Assembly (NCBI GenBank): GCA_006384855.1
Contig: VCJN01002426.1
Location: 62,001-126,000 of the forward strand
Length of the DNA stretch: 64,000 bases
From: Tetraselmis striata
Lineage: Eukaryota; Chlorophyta; Chlorodendrophyceae; Chlorodendrales; Chlorodendraceae
Direction: 5' to 3'
The notes under the pieces are model-generated. The model saw only the letters and a program-made list of their open reading frames with translations. It was not told the origin of the DNA and ran no database searches. The position numbers were made by a program, and so were the translations under genes. Of this stretch, positions 14,886 to 48,100 are shown one piece after another (the stretch's first letter is position 1; every line of letters begins with the position of its first letter).

Positions 14886-14890
14886 AGAGG
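14886..14890 (+). repeat. Target-site duplication, left (AGAGG)
   Basis: AGAGG directly precedes the LTR terminus TGTTAA. The same five bases directly follow the other LTR at 22284-22288. Five bp is the usual duplication length for Ty1/copia integration. Confidence 0.93.
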
Positions 14891-15334
14891 TGTTAATGTT
14901 GACACAAGGCGGCTGCAGCTGACAAACAAGCAGCAGCAGGTGAGTGTGAGTGCACAGGACGGCAACACGACCTTGCAGGTCGAGTGAGGAGCTGGTGGGA
15001 AGAACGAAGTGATTTACAAAGGCTAGGTTTCTCCAACTTGGCTGGTGGGCATGTTTGCAACATGCCTAGCCGGTCTGTGGCATCCTGGCCACTGAGATGG
15101 CCTCTAGTAGTTACCGTTGTACCTTGGTTCTGGTACGTTTGATGTAACTTTTCTAGTACTTTATGCTTTTTTGGTGTGGACATGAATGGTCAACAGTCAC
15201 TTGAGCCTGTTGCCCATCTGAGCGCAATCCTAAATGTACCCAGGTGCAGTACCACTGTGGCAGCCTGTTAGAGCAGCAAGAGCAGCTACAAGTCACAGCA
15301 GTTCAGCGCTCTCATCAGCATATTAGTATTAACA
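14891..15334 (-). repeat. 3' LTR of the copia element
   Basis: 444 bp with TGTTAATG...TATTAACA ends, a short inverted terminal repeat of the TG...CA type. Two differences from the other LTR. Its first six bases (minus strand) supply the last Cys codon and the stop of the Gag-Pol frame. Confidence 0.97.
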
Positions 15335-18300
15335 CCCCTCCTCGATGAACTGCATGACCTTTGCAGCAAACTTGGCGAAGAGAGGGTTGCGTAGAGGCTT
15401 GGTGAACATGTCGGCGGCCATCTCCCTGGTTTCCACGTAGTAGATACTGATGTCGCCATTCTTGCATGCCTCGCGCACGAAGTGGTAGCGGATGTCCATG
15501 TGCTTGGTACGACTGGATGTCACGTCATTGGTGGCGATAGCGATGCATGCTTGATTGTCCTCTCCGATAGGGGTAGGGCCGTCAAGTGCGAGTCCCAGCT
15601 CCTGCAACATCTGCCTGATGAACATCACCTCCTGAGTGGCGATTGCCATGGCGACGTATTCCGCCTCCGCAGTGGATAGGGTGACGATAGGCTGCAACAG
15701 CGACTTGTAGCTCACTGCTCCTCCGCAGATGGTGAAGTAGAATCCGCAGGTGGCCTTGCCTTGGCTGGTCATCGTGGCGTGGTTTGAGTCAGACCATCCA
15801 GCTAGCTGCAGCACGTCGCTCCCGCCGAAGGTGATGCCTCGATCAGGGTACTTCTTGAGGTAGCGCAAAACATGTTTTGCATCTTCCATGTGTGCGCGAG
15901 TTGGGGCTGACATAGCTCTGCACAGGCGGTTGACGGCCTCAGTGATGTCAGGCCTGGTGGCAGTGGAGGCGTACAGCAGTCCGCCGATAAGGCTCCTGAA
16001 AATGCTTGGATCGTCTAGCGCAGGTGAGTCGCGAGCATCGTTGCCGACGCTGGGAATATCAGCAGGGTTGCAGTCTGTCATGTTGAAACGCTCCAGCAGG
16101 TCGGTCACGTACTTCCCTTGATGTATCTTGATGGTGCCCGCGTCTCGGTCGCGCTCCACCTTCATGCCTAGAATCCAGGTGCAGGCTCCCAGGTCCTTGA
16201 TGTCGAACTCGTCAGCGAGGTTGCGCTTGAACTGAACCACCCAAGTGGTACAGTTGCTGCAGATCAGGATGTCGTCCACGTAGATCGCCACAATGCTGAA
16301 GGTGTTGCCGGATCGGTAGATGTAGGCGCCGGGGTCGGTCTTGAGTTGAGCAAATCCCTGCCCCAGCATGTGCTCGCGCAGCTTGAGGTACCAATCGTGC
16401 GGCGCCTGCTTGAGGCCATAGACGCTCTTCTTCAGGTGGTAGACCAGCTCCTCTCCGTTGGGGCCTTGCTGTTCAAACTCAGGGGCTTGTGTCATGTAGA
16501 TATCCTCCTCCAGGTCTGCGTAGAGGAACGCACAGTCGATGTCGGTCTGCTCGAGCTCCATGCCGTAATGGGCTGCCAGGGAAAATATGATGCGTAGCGT
16601 GGTGAACTTCACGGTAGGTGCGAAGGTGTCGTTGTAGTCGATGCCATGCACTTGGCTAAAGCCCTTGGCCACCAGTCGCGCCTTGTAGCGTGCCAGGCTG
16701 CCGTCGGCGTTGCGCTTGGTCTTGAATACCCACTTGCACCTGACTGCCTTCCTGCCGGATGGTAGGGTCACCAGTACCCACGTCTTCCTGGCTATGAGGG
16801 ATCGGTATTCTACCCACATCGCCTCCAGCCAGTGTGGTGCATCTGGACCGGTCAGAGCTTCCGTGTGCGTCTGCGGATCGCCGGGTGCCTCGCCTGCCAG
16901 ATGGGCATGATCTCGATTGCTCCATGCCTGGTGGCGGGCGCTGACGGGGTTGCGGTAGTCGATGCGCGGGCGGCTTGATCGGGACAAGCCGGCAGGCTGT
17001 GGCGGTCCGCTGGACGTCGGGGCGGTTGGCACTGTAGGGCGTGCTGGACCAGGGACGGCAGGAGTAGGAGGCTGGGGAGTCACTGCTGGTGGCTGCGGGG
17101 CACCGGCTCCGGCTGGTTCGGGCGTCTCATCTCGCTCAGGCTGGGCGTTTGGGAAGAAATCTTCGTCGCTGTCGCTGGCATCACTGTCACTGTCGGGACG
17201 GTGCAGTGGGCGGGATGCCCCTCCTGAGGTCGATGCCCCTCCGGAGGTAGATGCCCCTCCTGAAGTTGATGCATGCCCTTCCTGCCACATCATCCCCTCC
17301 TGTGTGGCATGCCGCCACACATCAGTGGCAGGTGAAGGGGTAGCCGGCAGGACCCAATGCTCGTTGAACGTGACGTTGCGCGTTGCCACGGTGGTGTTGG
17401 TATCAGGAAAATAGACGAGGTAGCAGTCGTCCGCATGCAAAGCGTCGTAGCCCACGAAGATGCCGAGTCGAGCAGAGGGGTCCGACTTGATGCGTTGAGC
17501 GCGCTGTTGATGAACGTACGCTGGACAGCCGAAGACGCGCAAATGGGAGAGATCAGGGGCGGCTGCGGCGACGATGGACATGGGTGCAGCGCCGGTGCTC
17601 CTGGGGGTGCGGTTGTGCAGGTAGGCAGCGGTAGCCATGGCAAACTGCCAGTACGGGGTAGGAAGGCCAGCATAGGCCAGCATGCAGCGGCCCCAGGTCC
17701 ACAAGGTGCGCCAGGTACGCTCCACCAGCCCATTCTGAAACTGGCTGTAGGGAGCAGAATACTCACGTCGCAGTGCATGAGCGTCACACTCAGCGATGAA
17801 GGCGCGACTGTGGAACACGCTGTCGTTGTCGAGACGTAGGGCACGGACGGTGTGCCCCATGCTGCGGGCGATCGCCAGGACGCGGCGCAGGCAGTCGACA
17901 GCGGCGGCGCGGGAGCGGACAAATAGAATGCAGCACCAGCTGCTGGCGTAATCAACAGCTCCAAACACGTAGGAGTTGCCTTGCAGCGATCTGGTGGGGT
18001 TCTCCCAGAAGTCGCAGCCCAGCATGTGACATGGTGCATCTGGTCGAGGATGACAGGTGCGCGGTCGCGGGGCTGCAGTAGCCTTGATCATGGCGCAGGC
18101 GTGGCAGAACGGTAGACGCGTCTGCGTGGAGTAGTCAACCTGCGTGCCTGCGGTGCCGCGCAGAGCGTCCATGGCGCGCTCATGGATGTGACCGAGCCTG
18201 GCATGCCACAGATACTTGGAGTCTTGCTTCACTGCAGAGACGAGGGAGATGCCCGCTGGGGGTCCAGACCGCTCAATGCGGCTGTGCAGTACGTACAGGC

Positions 18301-21300
18301 GGTCGACGCTCTCCACCGGGAAGACGGTATCGCCCACTTCGAGGCGGCTGCCGCGGGAGTTGATGATGATCTGGAGATGGGCATTCTGCTCCTCAGCTTG
18401 CCGGCTACTGAAGAGACGATAGATCTGGTTGTCAGAGCGGAACGCGAGATCTGGCACGTGTAACACATTGCGGAGAACGACTGTCTGAGCAGTGCCGTTG
18501 TCGTCGGGAATTGTGGTTCGCACAGTGCCGATGCCGACGGCTCGTGCACACAGTCCGTGAATCCAGCGCGGGGAAATGGGCTTGTAATCCGCGAAGTCAG
18601 AGATGTTGGCCACCATGTGAGAGGTGGCGCCGGTGTCAAGCACCCACGACTGCGGGAACGACTTGATGCTGGGTAGCGCAACCTCTGACGCACTGGCCTT
18701 AACGATGGCAAGTGCCAGCCACCTGCCGATGTTGGCATCGATGCAGGCGCCCAGCATCATGCGGCGCTGATCAAGCGAGAGACCAGGGATGTCCAATGTG
18801 TCAGCCGGGAAGCCCATGCTCACAGCCACGATGTCCAAACAGGGGGTTTCAGGCTCGCCGTCGAGTAGAAGCATGCTTTTGCCGGGCACTGCAGGTGCGT
18901 CTGTCGTGGCGGTGGTCATGCGGTAGGCGTAACTGCCCCGGCGGGAGACGAACTTCGAGAAGAGGCCATGCTGCAGATGAGAAGGAGCGGTCCACCGTGG
19001 AGAGAAGCCATGTGTGGTAAGGAGTTCCCCAACAGACAGCGGTGCCCGCTGGGCCTGCTGATAGTGAGCGCGAAAGAAATCGATGTCACGGATGTTGCTC
19101 CATACCACTGTATCGCGTCTGGCTGTTGACCCAAGCTCGTGCGCTCGGACCAGAATTGGCGTGCCCATAGCCTCAACGATCTCATGGCAGCGTGCAGCAC
19201 CGGGGACGTTCTCGAGAATGAAGTTGACGCCACCAGACTGCATCGACGCCAGACGCTTGACGACATCAATAGAACCGTACAGCCCACCAGCACGCGGGTC
19301 GGCGAGCATGAGGCGATGAGGGTTGGCGGCTGAGAACGGGGCGCAGGGCGGTGAGGCAATCACTAGATCGACATGCCCAAGGGACGCCAGTTCGTCGTCA
19401 GTGATGGACTGGACATCAGGGTTGATGCGGCCGTAGGAGTCGTGGATGGCGCTGGCAGGGATCTGATGAGGATGGCGGGCTTGCATGCGCTCCTGCTCCA
19501 CCCGGCCGGCCTTGCGCACGTGCTTGTTGGTCTCGCAGCAGATCATGTCGCCAATGGTGACACCAGCTTCGGCCAGGCCCTCCGCGATGGAGTGAAGGGC
19601 GCCAGCACACAGTGACAAAATCCGAATCGGCTTACCCTTGGTAAAAGCAGCACGGTCGGCCTTGACATCAGTAACAGACGGAAGAGGCTGGAACGGCGTC
19701 GGCGAGCGGGCAAGGGCGGCGTGAGGCAATGGCGGTGTGGAGGCGATGTCCGGCAGCGTCTGGGCGGCAAACGCAGCAGTATATCCACATGGATGGAAGA
19801 AGGGAACGGTCTTGGTAGGAGTGAGGTAGGCCGGGTAGCACACACCCGGGCGATGAGACGCAGTGTGGCGCCAGTGGAACGCGCGCTCCAGAGCGTCATG
19901 CTCGCACTCGCTGTCACTGTCGCCATTGCCGTCATCACCATGGACATCCACATCGCTGGCGGTATCGCAGAGGTTGTCGACAGCAGTCATCATGATCAGT
20001 TGATCAATGGCATCCGGTGTAGACGGAGGGACGGCGTCCGGGTAGTCAGCGGCATCATGTGTGGGAGGTCGCTCCTGTGGCGGGCTCCAGTCACACGGTG
20101 TGCAGCTGCCGCCAGACGAGCTGTCAGTCACCGCGCCCGGCATGCTGTTGTCGCTCGAGGCATCGTAATCCCCGTCGCTGATGCGCAGGAAGGCGCATGC
20201 AGCCTGGCGCGCCGCATGGTTGCGGCGGCGCACAGCATGGTTGCGGCGGCGGCGCAGATGGCGGTTGCGGCGATGAGGTGACTTGGGCTCGGCGTCAGGA
20301 TCCTCAGCGGACGCCTCCAGCGCGTCAGGCTCCGCGGCAGGCTCGCCTGACTCCTCGGGCTCCTTAGACTCATGACACGCCGCAGCAGACTCCACTGGCT
20401 CCGCGGGCGCCTTAGACTCATCAGTCTCCTGCTCAGCACCCATGGCAGGCTCCGCAAGTGGCATGATGGATGTAACCACCACATCAGCCTCGGGGAGCAT
20501 GGGACGCTTGCCATCCGCAATATCCGCCCGGAGCTTGTAGCACTCCTTGCGCAGGTGAGAGCGGCTACAACAGAAGGTGCAATGGGTGATCACGTTGAAG
20601 TCGGTGGTGACGGGCGCCAGACGTTCTGCTGATGTGGGGCAGCTGGGCAGGTTGAGGTGAGAGGTCGCCACAAAAGCAAATTCCTTGGCCACGTGGGCAT
20701 GCTCCTTGTCGCCAACGGCGTCAGGGCGGCCGCGGCCGTCTCCTGCAGGTGGGTTGCGATCAGGGTGAACACGGCCCGCGGCCTTGTCCCGGGCGTAGCT
20801 TCGGCAGTCACGCTTCGGGTGGCCAGGGATGCCACAGTAATAGCAGCGGCGCTTGTTGACGCCGGGGCGGTCTGACGGCTGCGTAGACGAGTGGCCAGTG
20901 CCGCCGGACGCCAAGGAAGACAGCATGGCGGCGAGCTTGGACATGGTTGCATCTTCAGCGCCGGGCTGAGGAGGAGAGAGCTCCTCTTTGAGTCTTGCGA
21001 CCAGGGCAGTGAGATCAGCCTCACTCAATTTGCCATCCTTCACGGCACTCGGCTGCGACGGGGGCGGCGCGGCCAGGAATGCTGCAGCAGTTGACTCGGC
21101 GGCAGGCGCACGGGAGGTGAGACGGACAGCCTTCGCTGCCTCAAGGAAGGTGTCAGGCCTGCTGCGAAGAAGGTGGTCGTACTCAGACTTGAAGTCAGGT
21201 TGACGCAGACCATCACGGAAGTGGTTGATCAGCTTGGCGTCAGGGACAATCGTGCCGGCTCTGTCAAGCATCAGGCGGGCAAGCATCAGGCGGGCGATGA

Positions 21301-21703
21301 ACGATTCGAGGTCCTCGTGAGGAGATTGCTTGGTAGACAGGGAGCCCTCAAGGGTGGAGATGTAGGTCTCAGGTGGCGGAGCAAAAGCGGCCTTGAGGGC
21401 TTGCAGGGCGTGGTAGCCCTTACGGGTGTTGTAACGGTAGCTGACGTCCAGGAGGTGAGTCGCCGCGGTCCTGCCAGGAAGCAGGTTGAGCAGCAGGCGG
21501 AAGACTTGGGCGTGGCAGTCCTCAGAGGTTGTGGTGTCATCAGCGACAAAGATATTAGAATACCCCTCCTCGCTGGTGAGACGACTCTCAAGCTGAAACT
21601 GCCACAGCAGCCATGAGGCAGCATCAAAATCACCAGGACGAGCAAAGGACTCATAGTCCTTGGTCTTCAAGCGCGCATGGGACATGGTAGCAAGGATTCC
21701 CAC
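15329..21703 (-). CDS. Copia Gag-Pol polyprotein with internal C5-cytosine methyltransferase
   Basis: One continuous frame of 2,124 residues. Parts in order: Gag capsid region of the UBN2/copia type (about 10-215); two CCHC zinc knuckles (287-300 and 375-388); an acidic linker with an Arg/His-rich patch (about 477-500); methyltransferase (about 693-1003); aspartic protease with VLDTGATSHM (1021-1030); integrase with HHCC zinc region (1167-1203) and a D-D-35-E core (D1231, D1292, E1328); Ser/Gly and Pro-rich linker (1478-1580); reverse transcriptase with YVDD (1808-1811); RNase H (about 1965-2100). The methyltransferase shows motif I (ILSLCAG), an acidic motif II (CCETN), motif IV with PPC (C787), motif VI ENV (831-833), an ARR motif VIII and motif X with QRRMMLG, in DNMT3-like order. 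Ty1/copia elements normally make a single frame that is processed by the protease, so the methyltransferase may be released as a separate product (inference). Confidence 0.96.
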   Translation of the reverse strand: MGILATMSHARLKTKDYESFARPGDFDAASWLLWQFQLESRLTSEEGYSNIFVADDTTTSEDCHAQVFRLLLNLLPGRTAATHLLDVSYRYNTRKGYHALQALKAAFAPPPETYISTLEGSLSTKQSPHEDLESFIARLMLARLMLDRAGTIVPDAKLINHFRDGLRQPDFKSEYDHLLRSRPDTFLEAAKAVRLTSRAPAAESTAAAFLAAPPPSQPSAVKDGKLSEADLTALVARLKEELSPPQPGAEDATMSKLAAMLSSLASGGTGHSSTQPSDRPGVNKRRCYYCGIPGHPKRDCRSYARDKAAGRVHPDRNPPAGDGRGRPDAVGDKEHAHVAKEFAFVATSHLNLPSCPTSAERLAPVTTDFNVITHCTFCCSRSHLRKECYKLRADIADGKRPMLPEADVVVTSIMPLAEPAMGAEQETDESKAPAEPVESAAACHESKEPEESGEPAAEPDALEASAEDPDAEPKSPHRRNRHLRRRRNHAVRRRNHAARQAACAFLRISDGDYDASSDNSMPGAVTDSSSGGSCTPCDWSPPQERPPTHDAADYPDAVPPSTPDAIDQLIMMTAVDNLCDTASDVDVHGDDGNGDSDSECEHDALERAFHWRHTASHRPGVCYPAYLTPTKTVPFFHPCGYTAAFAAQTLPDIASTPPLPHAALARSPTPFQPLPSVTDVKADRAAFTKGKPIRILSLCAGALHSIAEGLAEAGVTIGDMICCETNKHVRKAGRVEQERMQARHPHQIPASAIHDSYGRINPDVQSITDDELASLGHVDLVIASPPCAPFSAANPHRLMLADPRAGGLYGSIDVVKRLASMQSGGVNFILENVPGAARCHEIVEAMGTPILVRAHELGSTARRDTVVWSNIRDIDFFRAHYQQAQRAPLSVGELLTTHGFSPRWTAPSHLQHGLFSKFVSRRGSYAYRMTTATTDAPAVPGKSMLLLDGEPETPCLDIVAVSMGFPADTLDIPGLSLDQRRMMLGACIDANIGRWLALAIVKASASEVALPSIKSFPQSWVLDTGATSHMVANISDFADYKPISPRWIHGLCARAVGIGTVRTTIPDDNGTAQTVVLRNVLHVPDLAFRSDNQIYRLFSSRQAEEQNAHLQIIINSRGSRLEVGDTVFPVESVDRLYVLHSRIERSGPPAGISLVSAVKQDSKYLWHARLGHIHERAMDALRGTAGTQVDYSTQTRLPFCHACAMIKATAAPRPRTCHPRPDAPCHMLGCDFWENPTRSLQGNSYVFGAVDYASSWCCILFVRSRAAAVDCLRRVLAIARSMGHTVRALRLDNDSVFHSRAFIAECDAHALRREYSAPYSQFQNGLVERTWRTLWTWGRCMLAYAGLPTPYWQFAMATAAYLHNRTPRSTGAAPMSIVAAAAPDLSHLRVFGCPAYVHQQRAQRIKSDPSARLGIFVGYDALHADDCYLVYFPDTNTTVATRNVTFNEHWVLPATPSPATDVWRHATQEGMMWQEGHASTSGGASTSGGASTSGGASRPLHRPDSDSDASDSDEDFFPNAQPERDETPEPAGAGAPQPPAVTPQPPTPAVPGPARPTVPTAPTSSGPPQPAGLSRSSRPRIDYRNPVSARHQAWSNRDHAHLAGEAPGDPQTHTEALTGPDAPHWLEAMWVEYRSLIARKTWVLVTLPSGRKAVRCKWVFKTKRNADGSLARYKARLVAKGFSQVHGIDYNDTFAPTVKFTTLRIIFSLAAHYGMELEQTDIDCAFLYADLEEDIYMTQAPEFEQQGPNGEELVYHLKKSVYGLKQAPHDWYLKLREHMLGQGFAQLKTDPGAYIYRSGNTFSIVAIYVDDILICSNCTTWVVQFKRNLADEFDIKDLGACTWILGMKVERDRDAGTIKIHQGKYVTDLLERFNMTDCNPADIPSVGNDARDSPALDDPSIFRSLIGGLLYASTATRPDITEAVNRLCRAMSAPTRAHMEDAKHVLRYLKKYPDRGITFGGSDVLQLAGWSDSNHATMTSQGKATCGFYFTICGGAVSYKSLLQPIVTLSTAEAEYVAMAIATQEVMFIRQMLQELGLALDGPTPIGEDNQACIAIATNDVTSSRTKHMDIRYHFVREACKNGDISIYYVETREMAADMFTKPLRNPLFAKFAAKVMQFIEEGC
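15335..15343 (-). other. Polypurine tract
   Basis: GAGGAGGGG directly abuts the 3' LTR on the element strand, the usual place for plus-strand priming. It lies inside the coding frame, where it encodes Glu-Glu-Gly. Confidence 0.85.
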
Positions 21704-21828
21704 GAGGGGTGACGGAGGACGCCAGAGGACGACGAGGATGAGACGAGCGGAGAAACCCAGAGGTTGAGAAACCTAGGTGGAAGCGAAGACGAAAACAACG
21801 ATGAGTGGCGCAGGGACATGCGCGATCA

Positions 21829-21839
21829 GGCCTATAACC
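21829..21839 (-). other. Primer-binding site, possibly for an internal initiator-Met tRNA fragment
   Basis: The 11 bases next to the 5' LTR (GGTTATAGGCC on the element strand) pair, with one mismatch, with the anticodon stem-loop of plant-type initiator tRNA-Met (GGCCCAUAACC). Drosophila copia is known to prime from such an internal half-tRNA. No match to the tRNA 3' end (the TGGTATCAGAGC type of site) is present. The match is short, so this is a proposal. Confidence 0.4.
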
Positions 21840-22283
21840 TGTTAATGTTGACACAAGGCGGCTGCAGCTGACAAACAAGCAGCAGCAGGTGAGTGTGAGT
21901 GCACAGGACGGCAACACGACCTTGCAGGTCGAGTGAGGAGCTGGTGGGAAGAACGAAGTGATTTACAAAGGCTAGGTTTCTCCAACTTGGCTGGTGGGCA
22001 TGTTTGCAACATGCCTAGCCGGTCTGTGGCATCCTGGCCACTGAGATGGCCTCTAGTAGTTACCATTGTACCTTGGTTCTGGTACGTTTGATGTAACTTT
22101 TCTAGTACTTTATGCTTTGTTGGTGTGGACATGAATGGTCAACAGTCACTTGAGCCTGTTGCCCATCTGAGCGCAATCCTAAATGTACCCAGGTGCAGTA
22201 CCACTGTGGCAGCCTGTTAGAGCAGCAAGAGCAGCTACAAGTCACAGCAGTTCAGCGCTCTCATCAGCATATTAGTATTAACA
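21840..22283 (-). repeat. 5' LTR of the copia element
   Basis: 444 bp, TG...CA ends, nearly identical to 14891-15334. It should contain the element promoter. The leader between the LTR and the Gag start Met is about 136 bases. Confidence 0.97.
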
Positions 22284-22288
22284 AGAGG
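22284..22288 (+). repeat. Target-site duplication, right (AGAGG)
   Basis: Matches 14886-14890 exactly and marks the right insertion boundary. Confidence 0.93.
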
Positions 22289-22915: not shown

Positions 22916-23802
22916 GGCATAGAAGCGGCTGCCCCGCTGCATACGAGTGTGCCATCCTTCATCCTCCATCCCTCGCCGGCGGCAAGCTTTGCGTGCTACA
23001 AAGAGGCTACCCCCAGGGCGAGTACGAGTACCGCCCGACTCAAGCAATGAAGAGCATGCGCCGAAGATAGAGCCCCAGCCTAAACGGATTGAGCGCCCCC
23101 CCACCCCCCCCCCCCCACAACCCTTTGAGAGAGTCATATTAACAGCTAGTTCGAGTAACCAAACTAAACATTCGATTTCGATGCCAAATCACGCGTCAAT
23201 GAAAACCTGGGGTAGGCAGAGACGATGGCGAACTTTTGGTCATGGGCTGCCGGCTGTAACGCAGAAACTGGCACCGCATAGTTGCATGCATGCCTGTATG
23301 TATGCATGTATGTCGGGCTTCGCCTGGCCGGGCTTTGGTGAGCACATCAGCAGTTCATTCCCCCAGCAGTGTTTTGAGCCTTTGGATGTCGGTTCAGGCC
23401 ACGGCATGTGCATGAATGCGAATGGGCGGAAGCAAGTAGCGGGGTGTTGCTTCTGAAAAAACAAAGCCAGCAAGATGTAGCCCCGCGGTGTTGTTATGAT
23501 AGACATTCTCAAGTATGCAAGCTGGGCTAGGATGGCTTGCGTGGCGGATGAACCATGGAGCGACACGTGAGCCTGAATGTATTGTGCAAAGCCATGTGAT
23601 GCGCCTCTCCATCAGCGCATGGGTAGCGCGCATTCAAGGCTTGCCAGCAGGGACGGCAGCTCCCCTGGCGGCAGCGGAGGCTCCCGGCGGTCCGGCGCGC
23701 CCGGGTCCTCCTCCCAGGAGGGAGCCAAGCTGGGCCAGCACAGCAGGCTTGCGTGGATGGCGGGAGGCGCACCAGCGCCACCAGGCGGGTCGAACGAGGC
23801 GT
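22916..23802 (+). repeat. Segmental duplication, copy B
   Basis: Matches 1-909 in the same orientation. It covers the 3' UTR and last ~60 codons of the gene at 23612-24573. Similarity ends inside that coding sequence. The copia element and about 22 kb of genes lie between the two copies. Confidence 0.9.
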
Positions 23803-24573
23803 GCGCCCCGTGCACCGTCCAGCCGCGGCTCGAAAGCTGCAGCCACAGCGCTTCCAGCACAGCCGCCGCAAGCTCATCCCCAGGCGTGCCCGAGCACGCG
23901 CGCACAGATACCAAAACGACGGCAAACGGCGGGACCTTCGGGGCAACGAGCCTCGCCGGCGTGATCCGGCCCTCCCACGGCTCGCCGCGCCCTTGGTGCG
24001 CCCGCGCGTGGGGCTCCGCTAGGATCAGGAGGGCGGGCAGCTCCGGGCCTGCGTGCGGGCTGCCGTGTGCGTCGTCGGGCGAGCTGACCGCACCCTTCAC
24101 CTTGGCCTGTATGACAGTGGAGCGAGCGAGGGGGCGCATGGTATTCAGCCAGGCGTGCGTTCACTTGCCACGGAAGTGGAACGGCCACTTTCCGGGCAAA
24201 AATAATCCGGGCAAAAATCACGCCCGGATTTCGCGTCCCGCGAAGTACAGTCATTTCTCTTTTTGGCCGTGGTTTCTCCGCTATATTCGAACACGGGTAG
24301 AAGCAGTACCCGTACGGAAGAAGTACCGGTATTTCTCCTTTCTGCCTAAATCGAAGATTTAGCGTCCCGGCCACAGGACGACAGTGGTGGCATAGGGAGC
24401 TGCCTCACCTGATCGCACCGCATGCCCAGCCGCCGCAAAAGTCGCTGCAGGGATGGAGGGCCGGGGCTGCAGGGCTGCTCGGATGAGGCAGCGGCAGCAG
24501 CGGCATCGGGCAGCTGCAGGGAGAGCGCCGCGCCAGCACCGCGGCAGCCGGCGCACCCGCCAGAGACGCGCAT
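23612..24573 (-). CDS. Unidentified two-exon protein (219 residues)
   Basis: Exons 24573-24409 and 24106-23612 join in phase 0 (donor CAG|GTGAGG, acceptor CATACAG). The first exon is Ala/Ser/Pro-rich with Cys pairs (GGCAGCRGAGAA) and a basic helix (SLQRLLRRLGMRCDQ). The second has a Pro-rich linker, a hydrophobic strand (PPFAVVLVSVRAC), a helix (DELAAAVLEALWLQLSSRGW) and an acidic Pro-rich end. I do not recognise a family. The intron contains CCGGGCAAAAAT repeated and a CG-rich inverted motif. The start is the first Met in the open frame, and an upstream exon is possible. Its last ~60 codons recur at 727-909. Confidence 0.5.
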
Positions 24574-28514: not shown

Positions 28515-29190
28515 GCGTTACTAGGCCGGTACAGGTTTGAGTGTAGGTAGGAGTACTCGTCACGCTGATGTAACCGTGGCTAGAGATAGGCATTGCTTCT
28601 GTAAACCGATGCAGCTACTGGCACTCACGAAGGGCAGTCCCAAAGTGGAATAAACAGAAGCGCGCCATCATCCTCACGCCGCCGGCGGGCTAATAAATAA
28701 GGGTACTCCAGATATTATTGCAGAGCCCGCCCGCCTCGTCATTTTCGTCCATCAGCATCAGCATCCATCATCATATCATCGTCAGGCCCGCGCGCCTTAG
28801 TTGTTTTGTGGTAAATTGTACAGTAATCCCAGGTCTGCGCGCTGCGCTGATCATCATCAGCCCAGTCGTGATGATGTGCTGATATGTATATATGATGATA
28901 AATTATAACATGACTACTCATATAAGGATCGATTTATGCCGACTAGGATGATGATAATGATGATATGCGCTGATGCTGATGATGATGTTGGCTAAATTAA
29001 AAAAATGCTGGCTTGGTGGTTTCGGAGCGCGTGGTGTTCCTCCATAATAATTCATCATGATGAATAATAAAGGGCAATCTTAGTTCTATTCATTTGATAC
29101 GGCGTTATTTGTATCCACTGTCCAAACTGGTACAAATCGGCCTTCTGGACAGTCAACCCCCACCCGTTGCGCCCGTGGCTGCCTGGTCGG
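28515..29190 (+). repeat. Tandem duplication unit 1 (about 680 bp)
   Basis: Starts at GCGTTACTAGGCCGG and ends at GTGGCTGCCTGGTCGG. Nearly identical to the next unit; the visible differences are a few substitutions and small indels. It covers the immediate 5' flank of BUD23 and contains GAT-rich simple sequence (TGATGATGATG) and a CCGCCGGCGGGC palindrome. Confidence 0.93.
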
Positions 29191-29194
29191 GCCG

Positions 29195-29865
29195 GCGTTA
29201 CTAGGCCGGTACAGGTTTGAGTATAGGTAGGAGTACTCGTCACGCTGATGTAACCGTGGCTAGAGATAGGCATTGCTTCTGTAAACCGATGCAGCTACTG
29301 GCACTCACGAAGGGCAGTCCCAAAGTGGAATAAACAGAAGCGCGCCATCATCCTCACGCCGCCGGCGGGCTAATAAGGGTACTCCAGATATTATTGCAGA
29401 GCCCGCCCGCCTCGTCATTTTCGTTCATCAGCATCAGCATCCATCATCATATCATCGTCAGGCCGCGCGCCTTAGTTGTTTTGTGGTAAATTGTACAGTA
29501 ATCCCAGGTCTGCGCGCTGCGCTGATCATCATCAGCCCAGTCGTGATGATGTGCTGATATGTATATATGATGATAAATTATAACATGACTACTCATACAA
29601 GGATCGATTTATGCCGACTAGGATGATGATAATGATGATATGCGCTGATGCTGATGATGATGTTGGCTAAATTAAAAAAATGCTGGCTTGGTGGTTTAGG
29701 AGCGCGTGGTGTTCCTCCATAATAATTCATCATGATGAATAATAAAGGGCAATCTTAGTTCTATTCATTTGATACGGCGTTATTTGTATCCACTGTCCAA
29801 ACTGGTACAAATCGGCCTTCTGGACAGTCAACCCCCACCCGTTGCGCCCGTGGCTGCCTGGTCGG
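29195..29865 (+). repeat. Tandem duplication unit 2
   Basis: Head-to-tail copy of 28515-29190, offset 680 bp. After it the sequence leaves the repeat at GTCGGTTGTAAGC. High identity indicates a recent event. Confidence 0.93.
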
Positions 29866-45100: not shown

Positions 45101-48100
45101 AGAACATCACACCATCAGACATTCAGGTCCTGGCCAAGCAGGTGACACAGCTGGGACAAATGCTCAGGATGACCTGCCAGCACCTGTGATCCAAGAGTGC
45201 GCTCTCAAGGCAGCCAGTCCTCAGCTGCAGACAACCCTGAGCAGGCAAGACCCGGCTCCAGATGCTCCATGCGCGTCGCCGAGTATGATATCAACCAGTG
45301 TGGTCGGCAAGGCCGCTGCTGCTGACTCGGCACAAGACTACGCCGACAGTGTTGTCTGCAAGCAAGGCGTCACAGGCCCATCAGTACCAGACGCTGCAGA
45401 TACCGCAAGTCTGGCACAGATGGTGACTATTGCCATTGCTATTTATTCAGCCTTGTGTCGTGGCTTTCTCTTCTGTATCACCTAATAATTGCGATGCTTG
45501 TGATTGTGAAAATGTGTATCATTGTGTTAAACGCCTACATTCAACGTATTCCTGTGCTATGAATAGCAGGTTAAGCCTAGTGAGACACCAAGGCTGCCCC
45601 TGGCACAACAACGAGCTTTGCTGGGACAGCATGTATGGGTAAGCTGCCTGCCTGCTGTCCGCTGCATGAAACCAACCATGGTGACAGGGTCTCCTTTTTT
45701 GCCCCCGGTCACCAGCCTTGGTCCCTGTTGCCAATCTGAAGTGCTGTCACGCCTCCCCCGTCCTCCTGCCTCCGCAGGTGTATTGGGCTGCCGATGCAAA
45801 ATGGTATGCTGGCACAGTGGCTGATGTTCAGACGCAGAGGCACAGCAAGCAGGTGCTTATCCGCTACACTGACAATGAAGAGGAGTGGGGTGACCTCCTG
45901 CAAGGTGGCAACTCTTTTCTTCGTGTGGATGAAGAAGGGGAGAACGAGATCTGCTCACTTGAGTGGCAGGATGCTGCCGTGGCCGCGGTCCTACCTGAAG
46001 CAGCACTCAGGACGGAGCGGGTCCAGGTCTGCCTCTCCACAGCAGTGCCCCTCTTGACCTTGAAACCTCCCTTCACGCAATCTGCATGCATAACCTTCTT
46101 GCGCACAACCCCTTGCAAACATCTTTGTTGTGCCACACACCTGACAACTTCTTCATAACTTACTGATCTACTTGGTCATACCGAAATAATCAGTATTTAG
46201 CAAACTTCTATGCATGAACATTCAAGCTCTCTTATGAAGCTCCTGCAGTCTTTGGCCTGTTTGATGCAAATTTTATGCACACAGTTGAATACTGCTGTAG
46301 AATGCTGCAAAAAACTGTATTGTATGACTATCAACAGCATGAAGCTTCATTTATACTGACTTCTGGATATCATTCTAATGCCAAGGCAAAGACCAGGCTG
46401 TGCCCTGGAAGTGGGAAAGCTGCTAAGAAGACAGCAGCGCCCTGCCAGGCCATGGCTTCCTCCATGACGGGCTTATCAGCCAAGCGCACAGCCTTCTTGA
46501 AGGCAAGTTGCAGCAACGACTTTACTCCTCCACCTCAAGCTTTTCGGCCTCTCAACCTCACCCCTTCCCTTGCAAGTGCCACACCTTCACCCGGCACCCA
46601 TCCAGCCAGTGGCCCCAGTCAGCAAGGCCGTCAATTCGAAACACAGGTAGGTGCCCACGTGATGGTCAGAATTGAAATTGCAAATGATGCTACCTTAACA
46701 CGACATCCTGTCTTGATCGTGCTTTTATCACTTGTGTGGATGCCTAGAACAAAGTTCATCATTTATGTTGCACAGAATATCATGGGTCTACGGTGTACAA
46801 GTGACTGGTGTGTCTTCAAAATCTGAATCAACAGCGAGATTTCATATTTTCAGAAGGAGATATGCAGCAGTATGTAGAAGGAGATAGACAATGCATGCGG
46901 CACTTAATGCCATCTGCAGTCACTATCAATAGCAAACTTCTGCTTCATACTTCTGCTGGCTCACAATCACCGTGCGTGCGTGCGCTAGAGCCAGGAGGCC
47001 ATCACGCCGGCAGCACCGGTGAGCTGTGGGCCTGGGCGGCTAAGGAAGCACCAGCCGGCGGTGCGTGGGCTGGCCAGGCTGTCCCTGCTATCATGCCCAA
47101 AGAGACTGACATCCTGTCTGACATATATATCTTAGGTTCAACTGTGAGTATCACAAGTGGTATGATATCATAAGCTCGACTCTACGGTGCAGACATATTG
47201 CAATGCATACTGCGCTTAATCCTATCTTCAATCACTATATATAGAACACTTCCTTTCTAGCAAGCTTTTGCTGCAGCTTTGTTGCAGACTCCTGCTTCAG
47301 ACTTCTAATTGCTTGCGATCTGCGTGCATGTGCTAGAGCCAGGAGGCCATCACGCCGGCATCACCGGCGAGCCGTGGGCCTGGGCGGCTAAAGAAGCACC
47401 AGCCGGCGGTACGTGGGCTGGCCAGTCTGCATCTGCTTTCATACTCAAGGAGACTGACATCCTGTCTGACATAAAAATCTCAGTTTCAAATGTGTGTATC
47501 GCAAGTGGTATGATATAATATCAACTCTCAGCTGCAGACATGTAGCAACGAACACTGCCCTTCTGGAAATCTTTGGCTGTAGCTTTGTAGACTTCTGCTG
47601 GCTAACAATCACCGTGTGTGTGTGCTAGAGCCAGGAAGCCATCACGCAGGCATCACCGGCGAGCCGTGGGCCTGGGCGGCCAAGGAAGCACCAGCCGGCG
47701 GTGCGTGGGCTGGCCAGTCTGCACCTGCTATCATGCTTAAGGAGACTGACATCCTGTCTGACATAAGAATCTCAGTTTCAAATGTATGCATCTCAAGTGC
47801 TAGGATATCATCATCTCGTCAACTATCAGCTGCAGACATATTGCAACGAACACTGCCCTTCTGGAAATCTTTGGCTGTAGCTTTGTAGACTTCTGCTGGC
47901 TAACAATCACCGTGTGTGTGTGCTAGAGCCAGGAGGCCATCACGCCGCCAGCACCGGTGAGCCGTGGGCCTGGGCGGCCAAGGAAGCAACAGCCGGCGGT
48001 ACGCGGGCTGGCCAGTCTGTCCCTGCTGTCATGCCCAACGGCCCCCTGGTACGCCAGTGCGTGGGCTCCTGGATATGGCTCCAACATGGTCGCCCTTGCG

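Follow-up and report, generated by a model that had tools for sequence, protein, structure and literature searches.

The window, by which we mean the whole 64-kb stretch of Tetraselmis striata DNA that was analysed, contains a complete Ty1/copia retrotransposon on the minus strand at 14891-22283, the single long frame of which encodes a DNMT3-type cytosine methyltransferase domain in addition to Gag and Pol. The features of the element are as follows.

14886..14890, target-site duplication AGAGG, left copy
14891..15334, minus strand, 3' LTR of 444 bp (TGTTAAT...ATTAACA on the plus strand)
15329..21772, minus strand, single Gag-DNMT-PR-INT-RT frame, 2147 aa from stop to stop
15335..15343, minus strand, polypurine tract GAGGAGGGG ahead of the 3' LTR, recognized by eye
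16049..16786, minus strand, copia reverse transcriptase (RVT_2; Pfam, over cut-off), with YVDDI at 16268-16282
17357..17560, minus strand, retroviral polymerase SH3-like domain (Pfam, over cut-off)
17744..18037, minus strand, integrase core (rve; Pfam, over cut-off)
18083..18298, minus strand, GAG-pre-integrase domain (Pfam, under cut-off)
18443..18646, minus strand, Pol_BBD domain (Pfam, over cut-off)
18617..18637, minus strand, protease active-site motif DTGATSH (residue 1046), directly after the DNMT domain
18653..19705, minus strand, DNMT3-type C5-methyltransferase domain as aligned and modelled
20540..20581, minus strand, second CCHC-like knuckle CTFCCSRSHLRKEC (residues 398-411), recognized by eye
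20804..20845, minus strand, Gag zinc knuckle CYYCGIPGHPKRDC (residues 310-323; Pfam zf-CCHC, under cut-off)
21840..22283, minus strand, 5' LTR of 444 bp
22284..22288, target-site duplication AGAGG, right copy

The two LTRs are identical at 442 of 444 positions. The first ATG of the frame lies at 21683-21685, and its last codons read EEGC, with the stop inside the start of the LTR. The order of integrase before reverse transcriptase (RT), the copia-type RT, the TG...CA LTRs, and the short target duplication place the element in Ty1/copia, and an RVT_2 polymerase preceded by integrase is not the gypsy polymerase of KnitGypsy-Dnmt3. The DNMT domain is located between the Gag knuckles and the protease motif. 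Elsewhere in the window, a segment of approximately 850 bp at 56-909 recurs just past the element at 22968-23803 in pieces that are 92-98% identical, a tandem duplication with a period of approximately 680 bp (99%) occupies 28515-29087 and 29195-29762, and a fourfold repeat of approximately 216 bp (62-94%) is found at 46881-48034. A tRNA scan of the 64-kb window found none.

Regarding the methyltransferase domain, five motif regions were located.

18749..18769, minus strand, motif X region QRRMMLG
19112..19129, minus strand, motif VIII STARRD
19199..19213, minus strand, motif VI ENVPG
19334..19357, minus strand, motif IV ASPPCAPF, with the catalytic Cys
19601..19633, minus strand, motif I region KPIRILSLCAG, with Cys where DNMT3A has Phe

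The initial annotation had proposed a C5-methyltransferase domain with its motifs in order in a chlorophyte copia element, and the domain-bearing element was indeed found in many copies and several families. Motifs IV, VI, and VIII stood up to this wider comparison: the motif IV Cys, the Glu of ENV, and the motif VIII Arg, which follow one another in unpermuted order as in PF00145, are kept in 66/66 stop-free domains of at least 290 aa, and the Asn of ENV in 65 of them. This set was drawn from 73 fetched domain loci, the other seven being omitted, and is consequently biased to intact copies. Motifs I and X depart from those of DNMT3A. The standard C5-methyltransferase has FxGxG as motif I and GNxV as motif X; motif X of the element domains approximates G.C[IV]D.N, and motif I reads SPCHGPSASE in family D, while family E, a LINE-type carrier described below, retains CAGIGTG. 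Motif IV also varies, with PCC in family C and PDC in protein P0004. Recognition by profile, which the initial annotation had named as a check, holds for the window domain alone, which scored 22.1-22.2 bits against PF00145 (Pfam cut-off, 22 bits), but not for the domain inside the whole window polyprotein, which scored 18.5 bits and is under the cut-off. The whole polyproteins of families B, C, and D and P0004 scored 28.5-45.8 bits.

The predicted fold of the domain is nearest DNMT3, and DNMT3 entries top both VIA structure lists; DNMT2 appears in one list with 16.6 versus 20.9, and its absence from the best 50 entries of the other is no evidence of a difference. The sequence profile by itself ranks DNMT3A and M.HaeIII equal. 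The sequence match of the element domain to the catalytic domain of DNMT3A/DNMT3B is weak (E 0.0017), and, unlike these proteins, the element frame has neither ADD nor PWWP among its Pfam matches and differs in motifs I and X. A viral or bacterial source of the domain was considered and rejected; the matches comprised four loci on viral contigs and two on genome contigs, all at 27-33% over part of the domain, and four of these loci (L084, L086, L090, and L091) resemble ordinary Dcm-type enzymes by eye. The best Foldseek E-values were 1e-10 for viral proteins and 4.3e-13 for DNMT3B in the PDB, from libraries that differ in size.

In the genome (224 Mb, 2903 contigs), the domain has at least 117 matches, which is a lower bound because 116 of 474 candidates were scored. 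Matches with at least 75% identity to family A, the family of the window, merged into 32 loci, some of which could be allelic, and the 2147-aa frame is present in seven of them. Three public JGI Tetraselmis striata protein models match the domain with 98, 95, and 69% identity over 57-81% of its length. Identity to the domain of family A is 45-47% in family B, 44-45% in its subgroup B', 45% in B2 (52% to B), 31-32% in C, 30-32% in D, and 31% in D2 (88% to D), and A, B, B2, C, and D make up a minimum of five families in the DNMT-bearing copia lineage. In a complete element from families B, C, D, and B2, respectively, the frame is 2299, 2164, 2130, and 2483 aa long; the LTR pairs of these four elements are 98.5-99.8% alike, and in all of them the domain lies upstream of the protease D[ST]GA motif. 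P0004 shows this Gag-side placement as well. Pfam matches to both copia Pol and PF00145 are present in B, C, and D.

Some copies show peculiarities of their own. On contig C1111, two family A domains at 97785 and 104749 are 6964 bp apart, the length of the element minus one LTR being 6949 bp, and this pair is probably a tandem with a common LTR. The RT frame of many family D copies (e.g., on contigs C2621, C977, C882, and C1531) is broken at one place, query residues 187-190, which may be a frameshift site or an old, shared break propagated with the help of other copies. JGI model P0002 combines part of Gag-DNMT with a GidB-type rRNA methyltransferase (PF02527), which is likely to be an insertion or a model fusion.

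The domain is kept under purifying selection. For the pairs B and B' (dS 0.18) and D and D2 (dS 0.23), its dN/dS is 0.20 and 0.28, respectively; values of 0.22 for B and B2, 0.24 for A and B, and 0.38 for C and D were obtained at dS of 1.7-2.3, near saturation, and the remaining family pairs tried were saturated. Within families, pN/pS of the domain is 0.33-0.34 in A (n=22), 0.31 in B (n=10), 0.56 in B' (n=5), 0.40 in C (n=10), 0.22 in D (n=12), and 0.36 in E (n=2). Among the 22 copies of family A, the DNMT part (0.34) has a higher value than protease-integrase (0.29) and a lower one than the Gag-side linker (0.44). Multiple copies, a DNMT domain in the element's own frame, and purifying selection, which mark DNMT-bearing retrotransposons as a general class, are all present.

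A related domain occurs in a LINE-type element of the same genome. Family E (L082, L067, and L083; contig C2687, frame from 12680) has a single 3505-aa frame, in which a domain that is DNMT3-like by fold is placed after RT and before RNase H. The frame has a second methyltransferase-like domain with a match to PCIF1_WW (8.2e-15), and its PCIF1-like part reads NPEY by eye; PCIF1 has NPPF at the corresponding motif and has been linked to m6Am at the 5' end of mRNA. In a tree of 20 rows (nine copia, five E-type, one DNMT3A, and five prokaryotic-type enzymes; DNMT1, DNMT2, DNMT5, and a second DNMT3 row are not among them), the nine copia domains form one clade (94/96), the five E-type domains group together (87/88), and the two clades are sisters (87/90), although supports of 87-96 are not decisive. 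DNMT3A joins the copia and E-type domains against the prokaryotic-type enzymes (100/99); its row is fragmentary, and the join carries a long-branch warning and may be false. By eye, the copia and E-type domains have C-terminal blocks in common that are unlike DNMT3A (K[FL][VL]..., EP..DIR..MGF, and LLG.C[IV]D.N), with single-family exceptions. An unrooted Pol tree of six rows sets A, B, and P0004 apart from C and D, matching the DNMT tree, and a DNMT-less copia family with 1561-aa frames attaches between the two groups; in this unrooted tree, it is possible that the latter family lost the domain.

The simplest reading of these trees would be one capture in a copia ancestor. The initial annotation had proposed that a chlorophyte copia lineage made its own capture; the single copia clade is compatible with this idea, but since its sister in the 20-row tree is the domain of LINE-type elements, one family of which resides in the same genome, the domain may have passed between retroelements. 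A broader proposal, which we advance tentatively and hold to be doubtful, is that, in green algae and other organisms, a DNMT3-derived cassette has moved around between copia LTR elements and LINEs that bear RNase H, and that in Tetraselmis the retroelements would be the only DNMT3-type writers, supplying the host with de novo CpG methylation. Searches of proteins from other species were made with family A, an A1 profile, and family E as queries, and absence from EukProt proteins means little because transposons may have been masked.

Copia and gypsy elements without a DNMT are abundant in the genome, and the domain is, therefore, unnecessary for spread there. The 1561-aa copia family has near-identical LTRs in two copies (L088 and L089), neither of which has a DNMT match, and several copies per contig on a few contigs (e.g., C776, C805, C440, C1776, and C1435). 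Other methyltransferases were also encountered. A repeat (L001, L002, L004, L006, and L008) carries a different, bacterial-type cytosine methyltransferase, with DLFCGIGG where its start is complete, and an adjoining protein with NDDDLCFKYC; by eye, it looks like a virus-like element, perhaps a polinton-like one, and three further matches are present on contig C1230 besides L003 and L005. At L007 (C2385:454794-458405), a bacterial-type methyltransferase lies by a transposase-like frame and an apparent RNA polymerase subunit piece, which by eye is possibly a giant-virus insertion. L095 (C1546) is a DNMT2-like methyltransferase gene matching in separate exons, and L092 (C11, with matches also on C726 and C1756), which likewise matches in separate exons and has TAGFCCQSFSRAG as motif IV, may by eye be DNMT6. 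No DNMT3-type match was seen outside retroelements among the few other loci examined (123 of 337 candidates scored). SRA-domain exons scored over the cut-off on three contigs of the host genome, and a host reader of hemimethylated CpG may, judging from these matches, exist. In a genome search for DNMT1-RFD, neither this domain nor the control matched anywhere, which makes the absence uninformative.

If copies were methylated at CpG, faster decay of CpG would be expected. Rare transitions, taken from variants carried by at most two of the 22 family A copies, were found at 35 of 15745 CpG site-copies (0.0022), 49 of 13856 CHG site-copies (0.0035), and 44 of 25561 CHH site-copies (0.0017). The corresponding values in the domain for CpG versus CHH, all from small counts, were 0.0087 versus 0.0026 in B, 0.0047 versus 0.0052 in B', 0.0061 versus 0.0045 in C, and 0.0019 versus 0.0024 in D; no CpG-deamination signature was consistent across A, B, B', C, and D, and the excess was marked only in B. 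The observed/expected (o/e) ratio of CpG in LTRs is 0.37 in A, 0.31 in B, 0.13 in B2, 0.80 in C, and 0.85 in D, and 1.23 and 1.25 in the 1561-aa copia family. LTR depletion as a signature of self-methylation was rejected because LTRs of three DNMT-less gypsy elements, which are cut or split at the locus edge, are also depleted (0.56, 0.48, and 0.70). CpG statistics neither show nor exclude self-methylation.

We lean towards the reading that a copia lineage gained a DNMT3-type domain, most simply once, and kept it under selection, and that the enzyme would methylate the element's own new DNA. In Tetraselmis, a lineage of Ty1/copia would have gained the domain between Gag and the protease and then split into families. 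The putative enzyme would be synthesized along with Gag, be carried inside the virus-like particle, and act on the new DNA of the element while reverse transcription is in progress, once it is complete, or immediately following integration, and the new copy would arrive at the chromosome with host-like CpG marks. These marks could conceal the copy from defences against unmethylated DNA or could lower its activity with little burden on the host. Because of its Gag-side placement in the five copia families examined and P0004, the domain would be made with Gag and likely enters the particle where cDNA is made. The anatomy of the element, its copy number, the predicted fold, the conservation of catalytic residues, and purifying selection come from the analysis itself; we infer the activity of the enzyme, its CpG target, its packaging, the element's own DNA as the substrate, and the benefit to the element.

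An active enzyme might instead act chiefly in trans, with host genes, competing elements, or their chromatin as its targets, and shift the host methylation landscape in favour of the elements. The large number of domain matches in one genome and the lack of a DNMT3-type match outside retroelements among the few other loci examined are consistent with this, and the authors of the 2018 study speculated that element enzymes could have shaped methylation in Symbiodinium (PMC5890265); nevertheless, we regard it as rather unlikely, because CpG o/e outside the element within the window is 0.88, with no sign of strong CpG loss, and the place beside Gag suggests action inside the particle. Methylation of RNA, such as the genomic RNA of the element, with a role in packaging, stability, or translation, appears improbable given that the fold is nearest DNMT3 and DNMT3 entries head both VIA lists, even though LINE-type family E has the PCIF1_WW match and RNA methylation was raised for the LINE enzymes of Symbiodinium (SymbioLINE-Dnmt) by the 2018 authors (PMC5890265).

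Whether catalysis still matters at all was also considered. The domain could simply be carried along, or it could serve Gag as a module that binds nucleic acid, to which the degenerate motif I (Cys for Phe, and SPCHGPSASE in D) and the variation in motif IV (PCC in family C and PDC in P0004) would point. With dN/dS of 0.20-0.38 and the three catalytic residues present throughout the stop-free set, in families down to 28-38% identity, we give this explanation little credence. The fact that the window copy, unlike the others, scores near the Pfam cut-off could suggest an artefact of assembly or annotation, in which a host methyltransferase was misjoined to a copia element. The initial annotation had named such an error at a single locus as a danger, and it was refuted by the seven loci with the 2147-aa frame and by the recurrence of this domain order in four other families and an ENA protein; its probability is negligible.

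Work on two host lineages in 2018 posed the puzzle of why a transposon should bear an enzyme of the class that usually silences transposons. The elements described here add a third host lineage, the chlorophytes, a further element superfamily, a Gag-side place for the domain, and several families kept in parallel, and the genome also provides natural controls in its copia and gypsy elements that have no DNMT. Tetraselmis is a culturable alga, and a direct test of self-methylation is, therefore, feasible by comparing methylation on copies with and without the domain.

In our literature search by title and abstract opening, the scope of which did not extend to most subscription journals and preprints, no chlorophyte copia element with a DNMT was found. 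A 2023 survey reported no DNMT3 in any MMETSP green alga (PMC9998398). One sentence of a 2025 paper places certain DNMT3s inside LTR Copia and DIRS elements (PMC12344493); it credits streptophytes and dinoflagellates, citing the 2018 study, which says Gypsy, and Tetraselmis is absent from its main text. The Copia wording may be a slip or may be based on the supplement; the protein set of that paper is EukProt, which includes Tetraselmis striata models of the present element.

The precedent of retrotransposon-borne DNMTs invoked in the initial annotation is sound in that the 2018 study describes them in Symbiodinium and Klebsormidium, but there the DNMTs are borne by LINE, DIRS, and gypsy elements, not copia, and Copia of Symbiodinium is described as being without any DNMT (PMC5890265). 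KnitGypsy-Dnmt3 of Klebsormidium nitens is likewise an LTR element of a green-lineage alga with an unpermuted, in-frame DNMT3-type domain under purifying selection; compared by description, it is a gypsy element with the domain in the Pol polyprotein (PMC5890265), whereas the Tetraselmis elements are copia with the domain on the Gag side, upstream of the protease. SymbioDIRS-Dnmt3 similarly has a multi-copy DNMT3-type domain, in a DIRS element with a tyrosine recombinase, unlike the Tetraselmis copia. In yeast, the SymbioDIRS domains placed de novo methylation on CG, and the assay detected no activity from the KnitGypsy and SymbioLINE domains, an outcome that the authors called inconclusive; methylation of cDNA was proposed by them for DIRS elements (PMC5890265). 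SymbioLINE-Dnmt is a non-LTR element with a DNMT, as is family E, but its DNMT, of an orphan clade, for the most part occupies an ORF that precedes the one for RT (PMC5890265), whereas family E has one 3505-aa frame and a DNMT3-like fold. Taken together, the Tetraselmis elements are new relative to known DNMT-bearing retrotransposons in the carrier superfamily, the host lineage, the place in the polyprotein, and the presence within one genome of both copia and LINE-type elements whose domains are related.
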